NCBI GenBank assembly: GCA_030146605.1
Contig: JASLBO010000243.1
Coordinates: 1-7,042, forward strand
From: Sphingomonas sp.
GTDB taxonomy: Bacteria > Pseudomonadota > Alphaproteobacteria > Sphingomonadales > Sphingomonadaceae
Length of the DNA stretch: 7,042 nucleotides
Direction: 5' to 3'
Positions 1 through 7,042 of the stretch are shown here, one piece after another; the first letter of the stretch is position 1, and each line of letters starts with the position of its first letter. The position numbers were made by a program, and so were the translations under genes. The notes under the pieces were generated by a model. It did no database searches. It was not told the DNA's origin and saw only the letters and a program-made list of their open reading frames with translations.

Positions 1-78
1 GTGAAGGCCATTGAGAAAGTCGAACGCCAGCGCGACGGCGATCAGGCCGATCAGCAGGGGAAGGGCAAGCTCGTGCAT
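1..78 (-). CDS. pit: PiT-family inorganic phosphate transporter, N-terminal fragment
   Basis: Only the first 26 codons are present; the gene runs off the left edge. The ATG is at 78-76, and the translation begins MHELALPLLIGLIAVALAFD and continues FLNGLH. This is the first membrane segment of PiT permeases and leads into the family signature around FDFxNGxHD. PiT proteins are inner-membrane symporters for phosphate or metal-phosphate. The start lies 8 nt after the stop of the DUF47-containing gene, so the two are almost certainly one transcript. DUF47 (PhoU-like) proteins are classically encoded beside pit and are thought to modulate it. No strong ribosome binding site is visible, which fits translational coupling. 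The call rests on a short stretch plus context. Confidence 0.8.
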   Translation of the reverse strand, partial: MHELALPLLIGLIAVALAFDFLNGLH

Positions 79-86
79 GTCCGGCG

Positions 87-1265
87 TCAGGCGTGATCGA
101 TGACGATGCCGTCGATCTCATTCGCGACATCCTCGAACGCGTCGACGATCCGCTCGAGATGCTTGTAGAGCTCGCGTTCGACGACGAATTTGAGCGTGTC
201 GGTCTCGCCATATTGCTTGAGCGAGCGCTTGAGACCGGCGGCGTGGATGTCGTCGGCATGGCCTTCCATGCGTACGAGGCGTTCGGTGAGTTCGTGCAGC
301 CGGCCGGCGTTTTGCGCGACGTTGCGGAGCAAAGGCATCGCCTCGGCGGTGACGCGCGCGGCATCGACGATGATGCCGGCCATGTCCTTCATCTCGGGGG
401 CGAAGCTCTCGACTTCGTAGAGCGCGATCGCGTTGACCGTCGCCTGCATCTCATCGATCGAATCGTCGAGCGCGCCGATCAGGCTGGTGATCGCGCCGCG
501 ATCGAACGGAGTCAGGAACGTCTTGCGGACGGTCTGGAGCACTTCGCGGGTGATGTTGTCGGCGTCGTGCTCGCGTTCGATCACTTCGCGGATATGGTCC
601 CTGGCGGCGGGACCGCCCGCGAGCAGCCGCGCCAGCGCATCGCCGGCGGCCATCACCGTAGTCGCATGCGCCTCGAACAGCTCGAAGAAATTGCCCGTGC
701 GGGGCAGCAGGCGCTGAAACCAGGCGAACATCGGACCTAACCTCGATTTTTCAGCGACGGCGCCCAGCACGCCGATCCGCTGGGTTGCAGCTTTGAACTC
801 GGAGGCGCCGAACGAACGGATGAGATCGCGCAGATCGGGCTCTTCGACCGCGTCAGCCGCCTCCGCCAGCGTGAACCAGCGGCGCTCGCGCTCCTGCTGT
901 TCCTTCCAGACGGGAAGCTCGCGGGTGACCGCGAGTGGGAAGACGTCGACGTCCATCATCAGCGATGCGCCGCTGCCGCGACGCTTGCGATAGCGATAGG
1001 AGCCGAGCGGCGTGGGGCAGACCGGGCCGAGCACGCCGGCTTCTTCCTCGGCTTCCTGCGCGGCGGCCGCGTGCGGGGCGATGCCCGACATCGGGTTGCC
1101 CTTGGGGATCACCCAGCGGCCCGTGCCGCGCGAGGTGATCAGCAGGATGCGGAAGGTGGCGTCGGCGGCCGGGTCTTCGGTGCGATAGGGAAGGGCGGCG
1201 ATCTGACGAATGACGGGTGTCCGGATTGCCGGCGCAACGCGCCGGGCCGGTCGCCATGACTCCAA
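87..1265 (-). CDS. NUDIX hydrolase domain fused to DUF47/PhoU-like phosphate transport regulator
   Basis: One uninterrupted 392-codon frame carries two domains that are normally separate proteins. Residues about 19-160 are a NUDIX hydrolase. The box runs G56 to V78, with E71, E74 and E75 in the metal-binding QEAEEEAGV part. The usual Arg is Gln70 and the first box Glu is Ile62. The preceding RWVIPKG resembles NUDIX enzymes acting on diphosphoinositol or dinucleoside polyphosphates; the substrate is inferred only. Residues 179-392 are a full-length DUF47 protein (214 residues; family about 215) starting MFAWFQRLLP. It has PhoU-like acidic metal-binding motifs (EREHDAD at 230-236, EGHADD at 334-339, FEDVANEID near 377-385). 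The only in-frame start before the NUDIX homology is TTG at 1265, just after an in-frame TGA, and its ribosome binding site is poor. The gene lies 8 nt before pit, so the DUF47 half probably regulates phosphate uptake. The join may be a true fusion, two genes merged by an indel, or a sequencing error; an internal start exists at 731. Confidence 0.8.
   Translation of the reverse strand: MESWRPARRVAPAIRTPVIRQIAALPYRTEDPAADATFRILLITSRGTGRWVIPKGNPMSGIAPHAAAAQEAEEEAGVLGPVCPTPLGSYRYRKRRGSGASLMMDVDVFPLAVTRELPVWKEQQERERRWFTLAEAADAVEEPDLRDLIRSFGASEFKAATQRIGVLGAVAEKSRLGPMFAWFQRLLPRTGNFFELFEAHATTVMAAGDALARLLAGGPAARDHIREVIEREHDADNITREVLQTVRKTFLTPFDRGAITSLIGALDDSIDEMQATVNAIALYEVESFAPEMKDMAGIIVDAARVTAEAMPLLRNVAQNAGRLHELTERLVRMEGHADDIHAAGLKRSLKQYGETDTLKFVVERELYKHLERIVDAFEDVANEIDGIVIDHA
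729..744 (-). promoter_or_regulatory. Internal ribosome binding site and ATG for the DUF47 domain
   Basis: Inside the fused frame, the minus strand reads GAGGTTAGGTCCGATG at 744-729. This gives two Shine-Dalgarno-like elements (GAGG and AGG) ahead of an ATG that begins exactly where free-standing DUF47 proteins begin. A TAG stop in the neighbouring frame sits at 739-737, 5 nt before this ATG. That is how a separate upstream NUDIX gene would end. An independently translated 214-residue DUF47 protein is therefore plausible, even if the fused product is also made. Confidence 0.5.
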
Positions 1266-1281
1266 TCGCCGGCCAATTCAA

Positions 1282-1310
1282 GCGGGAGTGCGCGCGCGGC
1301 GCACTCCCGC
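1282..1310 (-). terminator. Stem-loop terminator after the carbonic anhydrase-SulP operon
   Basis: A perfect inverted repeat: GCGGGAGTGCGC at 1282-1293 and GCGCACTCCCGC at 1299-1310, with a 5-nt loop. It begins 5 nt beyond the SulP stop codon at 1316-1318, the expected position for a terminator of that operon. On the minus strand the stem is followed by TTGAATT rather than a run of T, so intrinsic termination may be incomplete. It also lies only 16 nt before the TTG start of the NUDIX-DUF47 gene, so the structure could affect initiation of that gene. Confidence 0.7.
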
Positions 1311-1315
1311 CCGGA

Positions 1316-2839
1316 TCAGGCGGCCAGCGCCGCGAACCGTCCGGTGGCGCCGTCGAACGCCACCTCGGACCCGCTCGCCCGGCGGCGGGTGGACCAGTCT
1401 CGAAGCAACTCGGCGCAGGTATGGTCGACCGCCGAGCAGCGCGTCAGATCGAGCCGGACCGGCGCGCCGCCGGGGACGGCGTCGAGCTTGGCCGACAGCC
1501 TCGGCAGCGCGAGGAAGGTCGCGGCGCCGTCGAGGGTGATGGTGCGGCCATCGGCGTCGTCATGCGCGTTGACCTTGAGCTTGAGACGACGAAGGTGCGG
1601 CAGCAATTCCAGCAGCGACAAGGCGATGCCGACGAGTACGCCGGTGAGCAGATCCTCGGCGACGACCAGCGTCAGGGTGACCGCCCAGATCAGCACCGGG
1701 AGGACGCCATAATCCTTGAACAGATGCCTTGCGTGGTTGAAGTTCACCAGCCGCGCGCCGGTGACGACGAGCACCGCGCCGAGCGCCGCCATCGGGATCT
1801 CGCGCAGCAGCCACGGCAGAAGCGCGACGAAGCCGAGAATCCACACGCCGTGGAGGATCGTCGAAAGCCGCGTCGTGGCGCCCGCCTGGACGTTGGCCGA
1901 GCTGCGGACGATCACGCCGGTCATCGGCAGCGCGCCGGCGGCACCACACAGCAGATTGCCGACGCCCTGCGCGCGCAGTTCCTTGTTGTAATCGGTGCGG
2001 ACGCCGTCGTGCATGCGGTCCACCGCCGCCGCCGAGAGCAAGGTCTCCGCGCTGGCGATGAAGGCGATCGCCAGCGCCGCAGTGAGCACCGCGGGATTGG
2101 CGAATTGGCTGAGGAAGCCGCTCTGGGGCAGCGCCACCGCCGCGGCGATATTCTCGGGCACTACGACTTTGGTGACGTCGAGGCCGAGCAGCCATGCGAC
2201 CATGGTCGCCGCCACCACGCCGAGCAGTGCGCCGGGGACCAGCTTGAGCGAGGCGGGGCGCAGTTTCTCCCACCCGATCATCACGACGATCGTGGTGAGG
2301 CCGAGGATCAGTGCGAGTTCGGCGGCGCGCAGATCGGGCGAGAGGCCGAGCAGCCGGCCGGGCATCGCCATCAAATTGGCGAGTCCGCTCGACAGCGGCT
2401 TCTCGTCGAACAGGACGTGGAACTGGCCGATCACGATCAGCACGCCGATCCCGGCGAGCATGCCGTGGACCACCGCCGGCGAGATCGCGCGGAACCAGCC
2501 GCCGAGACGGAAGACGCCCGCCACGACCTGGATCAGACCCGCGAGCATCAGGATCGGACCGAGCGCCGACAGGCCCTGATCGCGGACCAGTTCGAAGACG
2601 ATCACCGCGAGGCCGGCGGCCGGGCCGCTGACCTGAAGCGGCGAACCGGCCAGCGCGCCGACGACGATACCGCCGATGATGCCGGTGATCAGGCCCTTTT
2701 CGGGCGGCACGCCCGAGGCGATGGCGATGCCCATGCACAGCGGCATCGCAACGAGGAAGACGACGACCGAGGCAGTGAGGTCGCGCGCGATCCAGCCGGT
2801 CGCGCGCGGTTCGGCGCCGGTTATGGCGGCGGAGCTCAT
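1316..2839 (-). CDS. SulP-family (SLC26-type) anion transporter, probable bicarbonate transporter
   Basis: A 507-residue inner-membrane permease. Residues about 17-415 hold the many hydrophobic segments of the SulP transport domain. It includes SGPAAGLAVIV (71-81), SAETLLSAAAVDRMHDG (263-279) and NKELRAQGVGNLLCG (285-299), all typical of the family. Residues about 416-507 form a short cytoplasmic STAS domain, where the usual Asp-Ser-Ser/Thr spot reads D472-H473-T474. SulP proteins carry sulfate, bicarbonate or dicarboxylates. Here the substrate is inferred from the neighbour: the ATG overlaps the carbonic anhydrase stop by 4 nt (ATGA, 2836-2839), with GAGG 7 nt upstream, so the two are translationally coupled. 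That favours bicarbonate (BicA-like), but sequence alone does not exclude sulfate or a dicarboxylate. A hairpin directly after the stop ends the operon. Confidence 0.9.
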   Translation of the reverse strand: MSSAAITGAEPRATGWIARDLTASVVVFLVAMPLCMGIAIASGVPPEKGLITGIIGGIVVGALAGSPLQVSGPAAGLAVIVFELVRDQGLSALGPILMLAGLIQVVAGVFRLGGWFRAISPAVVHGMLAGIGVLIVIGQFHVLFDEKPLSSGLANLMAMPGRLLGLSPDLRAAELALILGLTTIVVMIGWEKLRPASLKLVPGALLGVVAATMVAWLLGLDVTKVVVPENIAAAVALPQSGFLSQFANPAVLTAALAIAFIASAETLLSAAAVDRMHDGVRTDYNKELRAQGVGNLLCGAAGALPMTGVIVRSSANVQAGATTRLSTILHGVWILGFVALLPWLLREIPMAALGAVLVVTGARLVNFNHARHLFKDYGVLPVLIWAVTLTLVVAEDLLTGVLVGIALSLLELLPHLRRLKLKVNAHDDADGRTITLDGAATFLALPRLSAKLDAVPGGAPVRLDLTRCSAVDHTCAELLRDWSTRRRASGSEVAFDGATGRFAALAA

Positions 2840-3528
2840 TCCGCAGCCTCGAGCTGGCGTTCGCCGGCGAGACGCTGCTTCGCGGCCTGTGCGACGGGGA
2901 GGTCTTCACCTTCGGTCAGCGGCAGGAAGCGGCCGGTGCGGCCGTCGAGCGCGAGCACCTGTCCGGCGCCGATGTCGAAGAACCAGCCGTGCAGCGCGAT
3001 CTCGCCGCGGGCGACACCGGCGGCGACCGAGGGGTGGGTGCGCAGGTGGTTGAGCTGGGCCACGACGTTCTCGAGGCTGATCGCGCGGACGCGGTCGACG
3101 CTTTCCATCTCGGGATAGCCCTCGTTCACCACCTGCTCGGCGGCGCAGCTATGCTTGAGCCAGGCAGCGACGTTGGGCATCTTCTCGAGCCCGGCCGGGT
3201 TGGCGACCGCCTTCATCGCGCCGCAGTCCGAATGGCCGCAGACGATGATGTCGCGGATCCCGAGCACCATCACCGCATATTCGACTGTCGAGGTGACGCC
3301 GCCATTCTGCATCGCATAAGGCGGGACGATGTTGCCCGCGTTGCGGCAGACGAACAGGTCGCCGGGCTCCGCCTGCATGATGTGTTCGGGCGCGACGCGC
3401 GAATCGGCGCAGGCGATCATCAGCGCCTTGGGGCTCTGTCCGTCCGTCGCGAGTTTGGAATAGAGGGCGCTCTGGTTGGGAAACACCTGCTTCGAGAAAC
3501 CGTAGACTCGTCCGATCAGCTCATTCAC
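2836..3528 (-). CDS. Beta-class carbonic anhydrase
   Basis: Interconverts CO2 and bicarbonate in the cytoplasm. The 230-residue product (GTG start) has all the beta-class hallmarks. The zinc ligands C40, H99 and C102 lie in the motifs CADSR (40-44) and GHSDCGAMK (98-106). The Asp-Arg catalytic pair is D42 and R44. GDLFVCRNAGN (56-66) and the Gly-rich TSTVEYAV segment follow in the usual order. The frame is open to an ATG at 3576, but the GTG at 3528 is preferred. It has GGAG 8 nt upstream (3540-3537), and its product begins MNELIGRVYGF as in relatives. The stop overlaps the SulP transporter start by 4 nt, indicating a carbonic anhydrase-anion transporter operon. The promoter region (3529-3640) carries a repeat element shared with the promoter at 5752-5841, so it may be under the adjacent two-component system. 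Confidence 0.93.
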   Translation of the reverse strand: MNELIGRVYGFSKQVFPNQSALYSKLATDGQSPKALMIACADSRVAPEHIMQAEPGDLFVCRNAGNIVPPYAMQNGGVTSTVEYAVMVLGIRDIIVCGHSDCGAMKAVANPAGLEKMPNVAAWLKHSCAAEQVVNEGYPEMESVDRVRAISLENVVAQLNHLRTHPSVAAGVARGEIALHGWFFDIGAGQVLALDGRTGRFLPLTEGEDLPVAQAAKQRLAGERQLEAAE

Positions 3529-3536
3529 TGTGCTTG

Positions 3537-3540
3537 CTCC
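3537..3540 (-). promoter_or_regulatory. Ribosome binding site that decides the carbonic anhydrase start
   Basis: The minus strand reads GGAGCAAGCACAGTG. The GGAG is 8 nt before GTG (3528-3526), an ideal spacing. The alternative ATG 48 nt further upstream would place this site inside the coding region and add a proline- and glycine-rich leader absent from the beta-carbonic anhydrase fold. Confidence 0.7.
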
Positions 3541-3547
3541 GTCACCG

Positions 3548-3567
3548 GCCCGCGGAGGGATGCGGGC
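3548..3567 (-). other. Small inverted repeat in the carbonic anhydrase leader
   Basis: GCCCGC and GCGGGC (3548-3553 and 3562-3567) can pair around an 8-nt loop. The repeat ends 7 nt before the GGAG of the carbonic anhydrase gene. If transcription starts around 3565-3570, this would be a 5'-end stem in the mRNA. It is short and has no T-run, so it is not a convincing terminator of the kinase gene. Its role is unknown. Confidence 0.35.
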
Positions 3568-3573
3568 AGGAGA

Positions 3574-3579
3574 CAATTA
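3574..3579 (-). promoter_or_regulatory. Possible weak -10 element of the carbonic anhydrase operon
   Basis: TAATTG on the minus strand is the most AT-rich hexamer between the box and the gene. It starts 49 bases after the first base of the shared box. At the same offset the other copy has TAGCGA (5807-5812). No good -35 is seen upstream (GCGCTG at an 18-bp spacing), consistent with a promoter that needs an activator. The assignment is tentative. Confidence 0.25.
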
Positions 3580-3590
3580 GGCGAGCGGTT

Positions 3591-3628
3591 TTGCTGCAGC
3601 GCAGCGTTTATGTAAGGAATTATTGCTG
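3591..3628 (-). promoter_or_regulatory. Shared upstream box, carbonic anhydrase copy (probable response-regulator site)
   Basis: Read on the minus strand, 3628-3607 begins CAGCAATAATTCCTTAC and ends, two bases later, in AAA. It matches the element at 5758-5779 at 17 of 22 positions. A second CAGCAA follows at 3596-3591, exactly 32 bp after the first, within a perfect 12-bp direct repeat (TTGCTGCAGCGC on the plus strand at 3591-3602 and 3623-3634). The GCAAT-N5-CTTAC arrangement has the 10-bp spacing usual for OmpR-family half-sites. The box ends 78 nt before the carbonic anhydrase start, in an activator-like position. Binding by the neighbouring regulator is inferred. Confidence 0.55.
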
Positions 3629-3640
3629 CAGCGCGGGCCT

Positions 3641-4951
3641 TCAGGCGGGGAGGCAGATTTCCGCGCGCAATCCGCCCTCGGGGCGGTTGGAGAGCTTGAG
3701 CGTGCCGGCTTCGGCTTCGACCGCGCGGCTGACGATCGAGAGGCCCAGCCCGAAGCCGACGGTGTCGCGCGCGCGGGCAGTGTCGAGCCGGACGAAGGGC
3801 TGGAGCGCCTGCTCGATCGACTCCTCGGGGATGCCGGGTCCGTCGTCCTCGACGCGGACGATCGTCGTGCCCGCCTGATCTTCGAGCGTCAGGCGGACAC
3901 GGTCGCCGTAATGCAGCCCGTTCTCGACGAGGTTCGCCAGCGCGCGCTTCATCGCGCTGGGATAGAGCATGCGTTCGCAATGCGCCGGGCCGACATAATC
4001 GACATCGTGCCCCTGATCGCGCGCGGTGTCGGCGATCGTCGCACAGATCACGGCAAGATCGACTGCCTGGCGCGGCTCGCCGTTGCCCTCGCCGGCGAGA
4101 TAGGCGAGCAGCGAATCGATCATCGTCTGCATCTCGACGATGTCGGTCTCGATCTCCTCGCGCATCTCGGCATCGTCGATCGCATCCGCGCGCAACCGCA
4201 GCCGCGCCAGCGGGGTGCGCAGGTCGTGACCGACGGCGGCGAGCGCCTGGGTTCGATCGGTCAGCAGGCGGTGGATGCGCGCCTGCATCCGGTTGAACGC
4301 GAGGATGACGCGGCGGACCTCGCGCGGGCCGCCTTCGGGCACTTCCTGCGCGCCGCCCGCGCCGACTCGCTCGGTGGCGAGCGCGAGGCGGCGCAGCGGC
4401 AAGAGGGTCTGCCGGACGAGCACGCCGCCGATCAGGATGATCGCCACCGCGGGCGCGAGCGCAAGCAGGATGCGTTCGGGCGAGAAGCTGAGATCATGGA
4501 CCGGTTCGCGCGTGGCGAACTTCATCCAGCTGCCGTCGGGCAGCGTGGTGCTGCCGACGATCACTGCGTCGCGCGCGGGGCCGACGAGCCGTAGCCGCAG
4601 GCTCGCGGGCTTGAGGCTGGGCTCCCACGCGATCACCTGGCGATGGATCCGGTCGAGCGACGGGGTGACGCGCATCGCGGGCGGCAGATCCTGCGCCCAG
4701 GCGATCTTGTATCGGGTGGTGGTGAGGTCGGCGGCGAGCGCCGGACGCTCGGCGGCGGGATGCTCGGCGAGCAGCTTGCGCGCGATGACGAGATGCTCGG
4801 CGAGCCGGCGCGCCTCGTCGTCGCGGACCGATAGCTGGCTGGCCCGTTCGTAGAAGAAGGTGCTGGCGCCGAACTCGATCAGGATTGCCAGCAGCAGGAT
4901 CGCGAAGATCCGCCCGATCAGTCCAAGCGGCGCCCTGACCAGCGGCTTCAC
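3641..4951 (-). CDS. EnvZ-type membrane sensor histidine kinase
   Basis: A 436-residue two-component sensor. The order is: TM1 about 12-32; a periplasmic region of about 125 residues (35-160) without a recognisable sensor fold; TM2 about 161-180; HAMP about 180-232; and a HisKA domain with phospho-accepting H242 in GHDLRTPLARL. The ATPase domain follows with N-box N340/N344 (ANLVENGLHYG), G1 box EDDGPGIP (368-375) and G2 box GFGLGLSIV (399-407). All catalytic motifs are intact. The GTG start at 4951 overlaps the response regulator stop by 4 nt (GTGA, 4948-4951) and has no clear Shine-Dalgarno sequence, so translation is coupled. Upstream readthrough of this frame to 5746 is only a shadow of the regulator gene. 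The signal sensed is unknown. Carbonic anhydrase, bicarbonate transporter and an exported peptide on either side suggest pH, CO2/bicarbonate or envelope status (inference). Confidence 0.92.
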   Translation of the reverse strand: MKPLVRAPLGLIGRIFAILLLAILIEFGASTFFYERASQLSVRDDEARRLAEHLVIARKLLAEHPAAERPALAADLTTTRYKIAWAQDLPPAMRVTPSLDRIHRQVIAWEPSLKPASLRLRLVGPARDAVIVGSTTLPDGSWMKFATREPVHDLSFSPERILLALAPAVAIILIGGVLVRQTLLPLRRLALATERVGAGGAQEVPEGGPREVRRVILAFNRMQARIHRLLTDRTQALAAVGHDLRTPLARLRLRADAIDDAEMREEIETDIVEMQTMIDSLLAYLAGEGNGEPRQAVDLAVICATIADTARDQGHDVDYVGPAHCERMLYPSAMKRALANLVENGLHYGDRVRLTLEDQAGTTIVRVEDDGPGIPEESIEQALQPFVRLDTARARDTVGFGLGLSIVSRAVEAEAGTLKLSNRPEGGLRAEICLPA

Positions 4952-5667
4952 TCGCGCGTGACGGGGGCGTTGAACATGTAGCCGACGCCGCGAACGGTGA
5001 CGATCGGCGGCTTTTTTCCGACCGAGGAAAGCTTGCGGCGGAGCCGGCTGACCAGCACGTCGACGCTGCGATCCGAGCTGTCGCCGAGCCGCGTGCGCGA
5101 GAGCTCGATCAGCCGCTCGCGCGCGATGACGCGGCCCGAATGGTCGCACATGCTGACCAGCAGGTCGAACTCGGCGCCGGTCAGCTCGACCACCGCGCCG
5201 GTGGGGGACAGCAATTCGCGGCGCGGCAGATTGACCGTCCAGCCGTCGAATCGGAGCAGCCCGAGGCTGCGCTGCCTGTCTTCTCCCTTGCCGCCTTCGC
5301 GGCGCAGCACCGCCCGGATCCGCGCGATCAGCTCCCGCGTGCTGTACGGCTTGGTCAGATAATCGTCGGCGCCGAGCTCGAGCCCGACCACGCGATCGGT
5401 CTCGCTGCCGCGTGCGGAGACGAAGATGATCGGGACCTGGCTCTTCTCGCGGATCATCCGGCACAGATCGATCCCGCTGGTGCCCGGCAGCATGATGTCG
5501 AGGATGATCAGGTCGACAGGGCCGGCTTCGAGGGCCACCCACATTTCCGCGCCGGTCGCGGCGGGGCGCACGACGAAGCCGTTTTCCTGAAGCGCCCGGG
5601 AAGTGAGGGTCCGCAGCGGCGGATCGTCTTCCACCAGCACGATGGTGGGGGCGGTGGTCATCGTCAT
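4948..5667 (-). CDS. OmpR-family response regulator, partner of the adjacent kinase
   Basis: A DNA-binding two-component regulator of 239 residues from the preferred ATG at 5667 (MTMTTAPTIVLVEDD). The receiver domain (about 7-122) has the acidic pocket E13/D14/D15, phospho-acceptor D57 in LIILDIMLP, S84 and K106-P107. The winged-helix domain (about 145-235) has the family pattern LTGAEFDLL, then SDRSVDVLVSRLRRKL, then VRGVGYMF. The start is uncertain. ATGs at 5685, 5667 and 5661 are in frame. The longest adds MLQYTT and has only a distant AGG; none has a strong ribosome binding site, so a leaderless or near-leaderless message is possible. The gene heads a coupled operon with the kinase. Divergent from it is a small exported-protein gene, and the 156-nt intergenic region holds one copy of the shared box. 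Confidence 0.93.
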   Translation of the reverse strand: MTMTTAPTIVLVEDDPPLRTLTSRALQENGFVVRPAATGAEMWVALEAGPVDLIILDIMLPGTSGIDLCRMIREKSQVPIIFVSARGSETDRVVGLELGADDYLTKPYSTRELIARIRAVLRREGGKGEDRQRSLGLLRFDGWTVNLPRRELLSPTGAVVELTGAEFDLLVSMCDHSGRVIARERLIELSRTRLGDSSDRSVDVLVSRLRRKLSSVGKKPPIVTVRGVGYMFNAPVTRE

Positions 5668-5693
5668 CGTCGTATACTGTAACATCGCGGACG

Positions 5694-5722
5694 GACCTAG
5701 GAACCCGCGGCAGGCGGGTCAA
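5694..5722 (-). promoter_or_regulatory. Candidate promoter of the regulator-kinase operon with an inverted repeat in its spacer
   Basis: On the minus strand, TTGACC (5722-5717) and TAGGTC (5699-5694) are separated by 17 bp: a good -35 and a weak -10. Transcription would begin around 5685-5688, at or next to the first ATG. A 6-bp inverted repeat, ACCCGC (5703-5708) and GCGGGT (5714-5719), overlaps the -35 and fills the spacer, where a repressor or autoregulator could sit. An alternative -10-like TATACG lies at 5676-5671. Confidence 0.35.
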
Positions 5723-5757
5723 CGCGCCCGGCGCGCCGCAGTGCACAAATCGCTGCG

Positions 5758-5796
5758 CAGCAACATTTCGTTACGGAAAGGGCAGCGATCAGCAAC
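5758..5796 (+). promoter_or_regulatory. Shared upstream box, small-exported-protein copy
   Basis: At 5758-5779 the sequence starts CAGCAACATTTCGTTAC and ends, two bases later, in AAA. It matches the minus-strand element at 3628-3607 at 17 of 22 positions. A second CAGCAA starts at 5790, again exactly 32 bp on, and a possible -10 (TAGCGA, 5807-5812) lies at the same offset as in the other copy. GCAAC-N5-GTTAC gives two half-sites with a 10-bp period, as OmpR-type regulators use. The box overlaps a palindrome GCTGCGCAGC (5752-5761). It lies 62 nt before the plus-strand gene and about 36 bp from the divergent regulator's -35, so it could serve both. Confidence 0.55.
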
Positions 5797-5841
5797 GCGC
5801 GGTGCGTAGCGAGCAGGCGAATTGCCGAAAAGGAACTGCCG

Positions 5842-6060
5842 ATGTTCGTGACCCTGATCGCTGCCGCCATCTCCGTCCAGCCTGCCCAGGCCGACCAGGT
5901 GCAATATCGCTCGCACGACATCGCCGGCGCGCTGAAGCGCGGCTGCAAGGTGCAGCGCGTCAGCGTCGCGGGCGGCAAGGCCGAGCATGCGGCGATCATC
6001 CGTTGCCCGGCCAATTCGGCGGCAGCGAAGGACGCACGCCGCGCATCCCCCGGCGCATAG
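5842..6060 (+). CDS. Small probable exported protein of unknown function
   Basis: A 72-residue protein I do not recognise. It starts MFVTLIAAAISVQPAQA, a hydrophobic stretch ending in an Ala-X-Ala that could be a signal peptidase cleavage site, although the usual N-terminal Lys/Arg is missing. The predicted mature part is about 55 residues, basic, with just two cysteines (C35 and C55) that could form a disulfide in the periplasm. The last 15 residues are Ala/Arg/Ser-rich and look disordered. The start is well supported: AAGGA (5830-5834) lies 7 nt upstream of the ATG. It is divergent from the regulator-kinase operon and its promoter carries the shared box, so it may be a regulon member or a feedback partner of the kinase (inference). 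It ends 6 nt from the convergent RmlD-like gene, with no visible terminator between them. Confidence 0.7.
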   Translation: MFVTLIAAAISVQPAQADQVQYRSHDIAGALKRGCKVQRVSVAGGKAEHAAIIRCPANSAAAKDARRASPGA

Positions 6061-6066
6061 CCGCCC

Positions 6067-7042
6067 TCACGCCGCTTCCGAACGCTCGGCCTTCAACGCG
6101 GGCAAGTGCAAGGCGAATTCGGCAATCGCGATGTCGATCGAAGGCAGCCTCGCGCCCCGTGACGTCGCCATTGCCGCGAAAGCCGGCCGCCGGGCGCGGA
6201 AGCCGAGCGTCTCCGCCGGAACGGGTTCGATCAGTCCGGCGGGAAGTGCGAGCGCGTCGGCGATCCGGATGGCGAAATCCGCCCACGACAGGGGCGTGTC
6301 GTTGGTGAGGTGCCACAGCCCGGTCTCGCCATCGATGAGGAGGTCGAGCGCAGTGTCGACGAGGTGCGGCACATAGGTGGGGCTGACCACCAGATCGCTT
6401 GGCGCGTGGAAGCGCTCGCCGCGCGCGAGTGCCGTCGCCGCCGCGAACGCGAAATTGTGCATGTCGAACGGCGAGAAGAACGCCGCGGTGCGAACGATCA
6501 GATGCGCTCCCGGCAGGGCGGAAACCCCTTTCTCCATGGCCAGCTTGCTTTGGCCGTATGCGCCCAGCGGCGCCGGCATATCGCCTTCGACATAGGGAGC
6601 CGTGCTCTGGCCATCGAAGACGAGGTCGCTCGAGAAGTTGAGCGTCGGGATGTTGCGTTCGGCGGCGGCGGTGGAGAGCCGGATCGCTCCGCCGGCATTG
6701 GCCTCGTTGCATTCCTGCGGCGCGGCTTCGGCGTCATCGACGCGGACCCAGCCTGCGGTGTTGATCACCGCCCATGGCCGATGGCGATCGAGCGCGCGCG
6801 CAACGCTGCCGGCATCGCGGAGATCGATCTCGCGCCGGTCGGTCAGGACGTAGGCGAGGTTTCGATGCGCGCAGGCGCGGGCGAAGGCTCGCCCGAGCGT
6901 GCCCGTAGCGCCGAGGACCAGAATGGGGCGGGGTTGTAGCCGGGGGCCGGCCTCCCTGCGGTGTGCCTCCAGCGATGCCGGCCGGTGCACCGTCGGGTAG
7001 AGCAGCCGGATCGGCCGGCGCCACCAGCCTGCGCCTTGCGCG
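6067..7042 (-). CDS. RmlD-like sugar-nucleotide reductase domain, 5' end outside the window
   Basis: An extended short-chain dehydrogenase resembling dTDP-4-dehydrorhamnose reductase (RmlD), which makes dTDP-L-rhamnose. Numbered from an internal GTG at 6990: the nucleotide-binding GATGTLG is at 27-33, NTAGWVRVDDAE (77-88) is the RmlD-type loop, S120/S121 lie in FSSDLVFDG, and Y145 and K149 form the YxxxK catalytic pair. The domain is complete to its stop. The frame does not begin at 6990: it stays open to the right edge, reading GWWRRPIRLLYPTVHRP just before it, and no ribosome binding site precedes the GTG. I recall sphingomonad proteins in which this reductase type is the C-terminal half of a protein with an N-terminal glycoside hydrolase family 1-like domain; the basic linker here fits that. 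The N-terminal domain cannot be confirmed. Likely role: nucleotide-sugar or surface-polysaccharide metabolism. Confidence 0.8.
   Translation of the reverse strand, partial: AQGAGWWRRPIRLLYPTVHRPASLEAHRREAGPRLQPRPILVLGATGTLGRAFARACAHRNLAYVLTDRREIDLRDAGSVARALDRHRPWAVINTAGWVRVDDAEAAPQECNEANAGGAIRLSTAAAERNIPTLNFSSDLVFDGQSTAPYVEGDMPAPLGAYGQSKLAMEKGVSALPGAHLIVRTAAFFSPFDMHNFAFAAATALARGERFHAPSDLVVSPTYVPHLVDTALDLLIDGETGLWHLTNDTPLSWADFAIRIADALALPAGLIEPVPAETLGFRARRPAFAAMATSRGARLPSIDIAIAEFALHLPALKAERSEAA

Follow-up and report, generated by a model that had tools for sequence, protein, structure and literature searches.

Conserved OmpR-type boxes predict a carbonic anhydrase regulon beside an EnvZ-like two-component system of Sphingomonas

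Does a two-component operon of Sphingomonas sp. control the genes on both of its sides? The question is raised by a stretch of 7,042 nucleotides (GenBank assembly GCA_030146605.1, contig JASLBO010000243.1, positions 1 to 7,042), analysed as a whole and called the window here. In it, genes for an EnvZ-type sensor histidine kinase and an OmpR-family response regulator lie between a carbonic anhydrase (CA) gene, which shares an operon with a SulP-type transporter gene, and a gene for a small, probably exported protein. Similar DNA boxes precede the two neighbours, and the initial annotation had predicted from them a regulon in which the regulator controls both. The reading favoured here, with a rough probability of 0.8 based on sequence comparison, is that the neighbouring regulator would bind both boxes as a conserved OmpR-type site and activate the CA-SulP operon and the small-protein gene. 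CA gene, box and regulator are co-inherited in the sampled genomes.

The two boxes and their promoters

The following elements of the window bear on this question.

3607..3628, minus strand: box 1, CA-SulP promoter, sequence CAGCAATAATTCCTTACATAAA, core GCAATAATTCCTTAC at 3626-3612
3591..3596, minus strand: second CAGCAA of the CA promoter, lying in a conserved CGCYGCRNNGCAGCAAA-like stretch where the -35 is expected
3574..3579, minus strand: TAATTG, -10-like element of the CA promoter, its TA position kept in the aligned CA promoters
5758..5779, plus strand: box 2, small-protein promoter, sequence CAGCAACATTTCGTTACGGAAA, core GCAACATTTCGTTAC at 5760-5774
5790..5795, plus strand: second CAGCAA of the small-protein promoter, from the window sequence and the listed divergent promoters
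5807..5812, plus strand: TAGCGA, -10-like element of the small-protein promoter, from the window sequence and the TA offset of divergent promoters
5717..5722, minus strand: TTGACC, -35 of the regulator's own promoter, after the TTGAC-N17-19-TA pattern of orthologues
5694..5699, minus strand: TAGGTC, -10 of the regulator's own promoter, from the window sequence and the same pattern

Direct reading of both strands bore out the arrangement described initially. The two boxes match at 17 of 22 bases, a second CAGCAA begins 32 bp after the first in both (3596-3591 on the minus strand, 5790-5795 on the plus strand), and a hexamer starting with TA begins 49 bases after the first C (TAATTG at 3579-3574 and TAGCGA at 5807-5812 respectively). 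The gaps from box to start codon are 78 nt for CA (GTG at 3528) and 62 nt for the small protein (ATG at 5842). Box 1 consists of the half-sites GCAATA and CTTACA, spaced 10 bp, and the general box of GCAAYA and STTACA, likewise 10 bp apart. This half-site geometry is present and conserved in orthologous promoters, in agreement with the OmpR-like layout of 10-bp period that had been proposed. Box 2 is oriented towards the small-protein gene, and the regulator has a separate conserved promoter: TTGAC-N17-19-TA stands before the regulator gene at 61 of 79 orthologous loci, a further one being too short to score, with 0.9 expected from shuffles. Neither boxed promoter of the window has a TTGACA-like -35.

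Conservation of the box and its linkage to the regulator

The box was followed through 80 orthologous loci, the best 80 of 341 relatives, gathered with an alignment of 25 kinases. By record name, 77 of these loci belong to Sphingomonas and one each to Bacillus, Arthrobacter and a metagenome-assembled genome of the Proteobacteria. The contigs labelled Bacillus sp. (L040) and Arthrobacter sp. (L056) bear a Sphingomonas locus, and their labels look wrong. The regulator gene immediately precedes the kinase gene in all 80 loci (gap of -6 to 298 nt), and the kinase gene is followed by CA in 56, by SulP without CA in 10 and by neither nearby in 14. Ahead of CA, 31 of the 56 loci carry the core GCAAYRNTTYSTTAC exactly; 12 show one mismatch, five show two and three show three, which places 43/56 orthologous loci at one mismatch or fewer. 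At the 10 SulP-first loci, the core is exact in one, has three or four mismatches in eight and lacks a site within four mismatches in one. A search at E 1e-30 found no CA relative in any of the 24 locus genomes without CA beside the kinase; this search had no positive of its own, and its query matched 32 of the 119 family genomes described below.

On the divergent side, facing away from the regulator, the core is exact in 9/80 loci and has one mismatch in 5/80 (14/80 at one mismatch or fewer). A divergent site scoring at least 12 was found in 18 sequences (the window and 17 loci), and in 14 of them it precedes a small open reading frame (ORF) whose product combines a signal-like start with two cysteines and, in many cases, a PAGK-like motif; no such ORF follows in L005, L007, L008 and L054. 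Fast-evolving small proteins of this type, often with the PAGK-like motif, are seen at 5842-6060 of the window and in L003, L010, L011, L021, L062 and L079.

A sample of 119 genomes from the same family served to examine the wider linkage; a regulator match at E <=1e-60 was found in 31. In 24 of the 119 genomes there is a CA match at 55% identity or more; all 24 belong to the 31 regulator-positive genomes, with roughly 2.1 kb between the match and the regulator gene in each. The box is present at 24/24 of these CA promoters, each at P <=0.003 (training matrix, 1000 dinucleotide shuffles). Two of the genomes (G001 and G034) duplicate training-locus sequences; DNA identity to any training locus is at most 80% for the remaining 22, two of which (L200 and L201) gave no long match to training loci. 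All 22 CA promoters that lie beside the system and outside the training set bear the box. Among genomes without a regulator match at this threshold, none of six CA relatives (43-49% identity) bears it. Three of these six (L203-L205) have SulP directly downstream, and at a lower regulator threshold the three CA-SulP control genomes show only 39-42% paralogues. Two further such CA matches, without locus, lay outside the six-promoter control. In a class-level sample, two more CA relatives (49%) in genomes with no regulator match at E 1e-45 were also without the box; in G360 of the same level, two CA copies have box-like sites and the regulator (69%) lies on the same contig. One regulator orthologue (G036:C1:1952014-1952718) contains one in-frame TAG, and the CA box of that genome is intact.

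Genome-wide counts agree with this distribution. The exact core occurs at 66 sites in 40 genomes with the locus versus 3 for the reversed pattern, the 66 including the motif-defining loci, and at 37 versus 16 sites in the 119 family genomes; these counts compare whole genomes rather than intergenic regions alone. Conservation in orthologous promoters and a frequency above chance, both named beforehand as what such an element would show, were found. The 66 sites include 15 at the CA or SulP promoters within the locus, five divergent from the regulator, 10 at TorF-family porin genes, one after SulP without TorF and 10 beside Bax-inhibitor-type genes in either orientation. At least one exact site is present in 15/31 regulator-positive and 10/88 regulator-negative genomes (Fisher 5e-5), and 19/25 exact sites in the positive genomes lie at target genes versus 0/12 in the negative ones (Fisher 1e-5), values which overstate the strength of the association because the two sets of genomes share ancestry. 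Target genes in this tally are CA, SulP-type (38-41% relatives included), regulator-upstream, TorF and Bax-inhibitor genes; three of the other six sites were inspected as well. The orthologous promoters are likewise not statistically independent.

The anatomy of the CA promoter was read from an alignment of 48 promoters on the box only, eight of the 56 having been excluded for more than two mismatches. The box columns G0, A3, T8, T11, A13 and C14 are invariant, and the TA starts 47 positions after the G of GCAA (+47) in 48/48. The same position is held in 17 of the 22 CA promoters outside the training set, in 7/15 promoters divergent from the regulator and in 4/8 (family sample) and 4/12 (other scan) TorF promoters; L149 had first been grouped with the latter, is followed by no TorF and is excluded from the 12. 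The offset of +47 is common to these three promoter classes, and TA at other offsets from 30 to 59 averages 0.2-0.4 sequences. In the aligned CA promoters, the CGCYGCRNNGCAGCAAA-like stretch spans the expected -35 region. The first box and the TA are rigid. CA promoters keep the second CAGCAA in part, with a possible shift of 1 bp, and many of the TorF sites listed lack it.

The regulator and the rival explanations

The proteins encoded in the window are as follows.

1316..2839, minus strand: SulP-type anion transporter with STAS domain (Pfam PF00916 and PF13466)
2836..3528, minus strand: beta-carbonic anhydrase, Pro_CA (PF00484, E 6.9e-49, 166.5 bits, cut-off 25.7)
3641..4951, minus strand: EnvZ-type sensor histidine kinase (HAMP, HisKA and HATPase_c of Pfam)
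4948..5667, minus strand: OmpR-family response regulator (Response_reg PF00072 and Trans_reg_C PF00486, above cut-off)
5842..6060, plus strand: putative small exported protein of 72 residues with two cysteines and a signal-like start (0 Pfam families)

The CA and SulP genes overlap within one operon, and the regulator and kinase genes share a 4-base overlap. The best NCBIfam match of the kinase is EnvZ, at 205.7 bits under a cut-off of 415, and those of the regulator are TorR (198.1 bits, cut-off 275) and OmpR (194 bits, cut-off 331), both under cut-off. The SulP transporter, at 110.3 bits, falls far under the BicA equivalog cut-off of 880; bicarbonate is its presumed substrate because SulP is paired with CA. 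Export of the small protein is judged from its signal-like start, and a search with it returned 17 proteins, the window's own included. Where a source is named, the closest kinases and small proteins come from Sphingomonas gei and S. psychrotolerans. An AlphaFold model of the kinase has a mean pLDDT of 74.9, and its best 50 PDB matches are led by the CpxA catalytic core; by sequence, the sensor segment showed no solved relative (one match, E 0.32).

With E. coli OmpR the regulator has 41% identity and shares 9 of 12 residues in a closely similar recognition helix (RSVDVLVSRLRR vs RSIDVQISRLRR), at what we take to be the helix position in OmpR. The helix is near-invariant in 80/80 orthologues, in keeping with the conserved box. 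The EnvZ-OmpR system of E. coli and Yersinia resembles the present one in other respects as well. The kinase is 35% identical to EnvZ over residues 130-435 (HAMP and catalytic parts), and porin genes (TorF) are among the boxed genes. A passage of PMC3050692 describes OmpR sites of Y. pestis as 20 bp long with two 10-bp sub-elements. The putative sites here have a like spacing. The two systems differ in that the proteins here score under the OmpR and EnvZ equivalog cut-offs, the sensor part of the kinase does not align with EnvZ, the site sequence is another, and the main linked target is the CA-SulP operon.

In the favoured reading, the EnvZ-like kinase would phosphorylate the regulator, a regulator dimer would bind the box, and the bound regulator would recruit RNA polymerase as an activator of class II type. 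The regulon would serve bicarbonate or pH homeostasis and envelope permeability.

Several observations weigh against this reading. Five of the 56 CA promoters have no site within four mismatches, and most of the 80 loci lack the small-protein box. Two class-level genomes hold relatives of both the regulator (62% and 52%) and CA (51-56%) but have no box at CA. Twenty-five of the 66 exact sites lie at none of the four target groups. A clear box precedes only 8/22 TorF orthologues in regulator-positive genomes, with a weak one in two more, versus 0/8 in regulator-negative genomes (Fisher 0.07, 30 fetched TorF loci). TA stands at +37 instead in 4/13 TorF sites (L149 included), from near-identical promoters, and the +47 offset is kept at 0/7 Bax-inhibitor sites. 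Finally, the box matrix on E. coli ompF and ompC did not rise above shuffles (310 and 923 of 1000 reach the best score); the box is therefore not the enterobacterial OmpR site. Its equation with the E. coli site is unsupported, the layout being common and the letters different. The regulon predicted initially is nevertheless supported, with corrections. The box is kept in orthologous CA promoters (43/56 and 22/22), exceeds chance genome-wide and is missing from the six examined CA promoters without the regulator. The corrections are that the boxed genes outnumber the two neighbours and that the small-protein box is far less widely conserved (14/80).

The regulator could bind the box and yet repress, or only fine-tune, the CA-SulP operon and the small-protein gene. 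OmpR-family regulators can both activate and repress, and overlap between box and -35 is possible at the TorF promoters of L082, L089, L091 and L092. Such a role appears unlikely. At CA promoters the box ends upstream of the -35 region, keeps a fixed distance to the -10 and is joined by no TTGACA-like -35, an arrangement to be expected of an activator. Binding by another OmpR-family regulator, encoded elsewhere, with the neighbouring pair linked to CA in some other way, could draw on the paralogues of this family (39-47% relatives in six regulator-negative family genomes) and on the similarity of OmpR-family sites. Against this, exact boxes at target genes were seen only in genomes with the regulator (19/25 vs 0/12), and no box stands at the three CA-SulP pairs whose genomes offer only 39-42% paralogues; we consider this explanation decidedly unlikely.

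Because the element lies upstream of a fixed -10-like TA, it might also be taken for an alternative-sigma or other core promoter signal. Its start, 47 bp before the TA, is too distant for a -35 element, and the element tracks the presence of one response regulator, which makes this very improbable. A chance likeness of the two boxes, which a match of only 17/22 bases within the window would allow, has a negligible probability: it is refuted by the box in 43/56 orthologous loci and 22/22 outside the training set, and the genome-wide counts speak against it as well. Regulation by the neighbouring regulator, with activation of CA-SulP and the small-protein gene, is the reading retained here.

Further boxed genes and meaning of the proposed regulon

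Under a stricter pattern, GCAAYANTTCSTTAC, the S. gei genome has four exact sites: two belong to the locus, and the others precede a TorF-family porin gene and a Bax-inhibitor-type gene respectively. Three further genomes show the same four sites at one mismatch or fewer. A TorF porin gene lies shortly after SulP in L136, L140, L142 and L171, and in L211, L212, L219, L220, L222, L224, L227 and L233 of the family sample; a box-like site precedes the post-SulP TorF gene at P <=0.017 in 7/8 family-sample cases. At seven loci, a terC RNA (Rfam RF03067, cis-regulatory) lies upstream of a Bax-inhibitor-type gene, not terC, and adjoins the regulator box. Its positions are:

L093: 1384-1446
L083: 1570-1632
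L096: 1383-1445
L094 and L175: 1566-1628
L156: 1384-1446
L166: 1395-1457

In the genome of L014 (S. aracearum), an exact box lies 87 nt ahead of a TerC-family gene (PF03741, L134:1588-2325), at which no terC RNA above threshold was found. A literature search on the terC RNA turned up no paper that combined all three terms sought. In L145 and L165, from the genomes of L038 and L042, an exact box stands 34 nt before a long ORF for a putative membrane-bound glucose dehydrogenase.

From the boxed genes (CA-SulP, Bax-inhibitor-type genes and, in one genome, a TerC-family gene) comes the guess that the signal may be pH or bicarbonate. A broader and doubtful proposal is a dedicated bicarbonate- or pH-sensing EnvZ-OmpR branch, in which one site type would join CA-SulP for the handling of bicarbonate, TorF for the permeability of the outer membrane and TerC or Bax-inhibitor-type membrane proteins, some behind an orphan riboregulator, with a small periplasmic two-cysteine protein that would feed back on the kinase.

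The initial annotation knew of no described system that ties a sensor kinase to bicarbonate or carbonic anhydrase functions. A precedent exists: ArsRS of Helicobacter pylori is presented in a passage of PMC9449129, citing Wen et al. 2007, as an OmpR-like two-component system that controls carbonic anhydrase in acid acclimation; because of this precedent, two-component control of CA is not new in kind. ArsRS differs in its alpha-type CA and its part in the acid acclimation of a gastric bacterium, whereas here a beta-CA and SulP lie in an adjacent operon. Pairs of beta-CA and SulP genes are also found without the regulator (L203-L205); the pair here is tied to regulator and box, and the three regulator-less pairs have no box. 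No paper describing the present system was found in the open-access literature among the matches listed, subscription literature being outside the search. A histidine kinase named EnvZ is described as induced in two phyllosphere strains on plants in a passage of PMC9123166 (section 7).

An uncharacterised two-component system, present in 80 Sphingomonas-type loci, gains a concrete predicted regulon and a DNA site. TorF porins gain a candidate regulator, as does a Bax-inhibitor-type gene that has an orphan cis-regulatory RNA. These findings suggest that, across a large group of environmental bacteria, CA and SulP are under the control of an envelope sensor of OmpR type.

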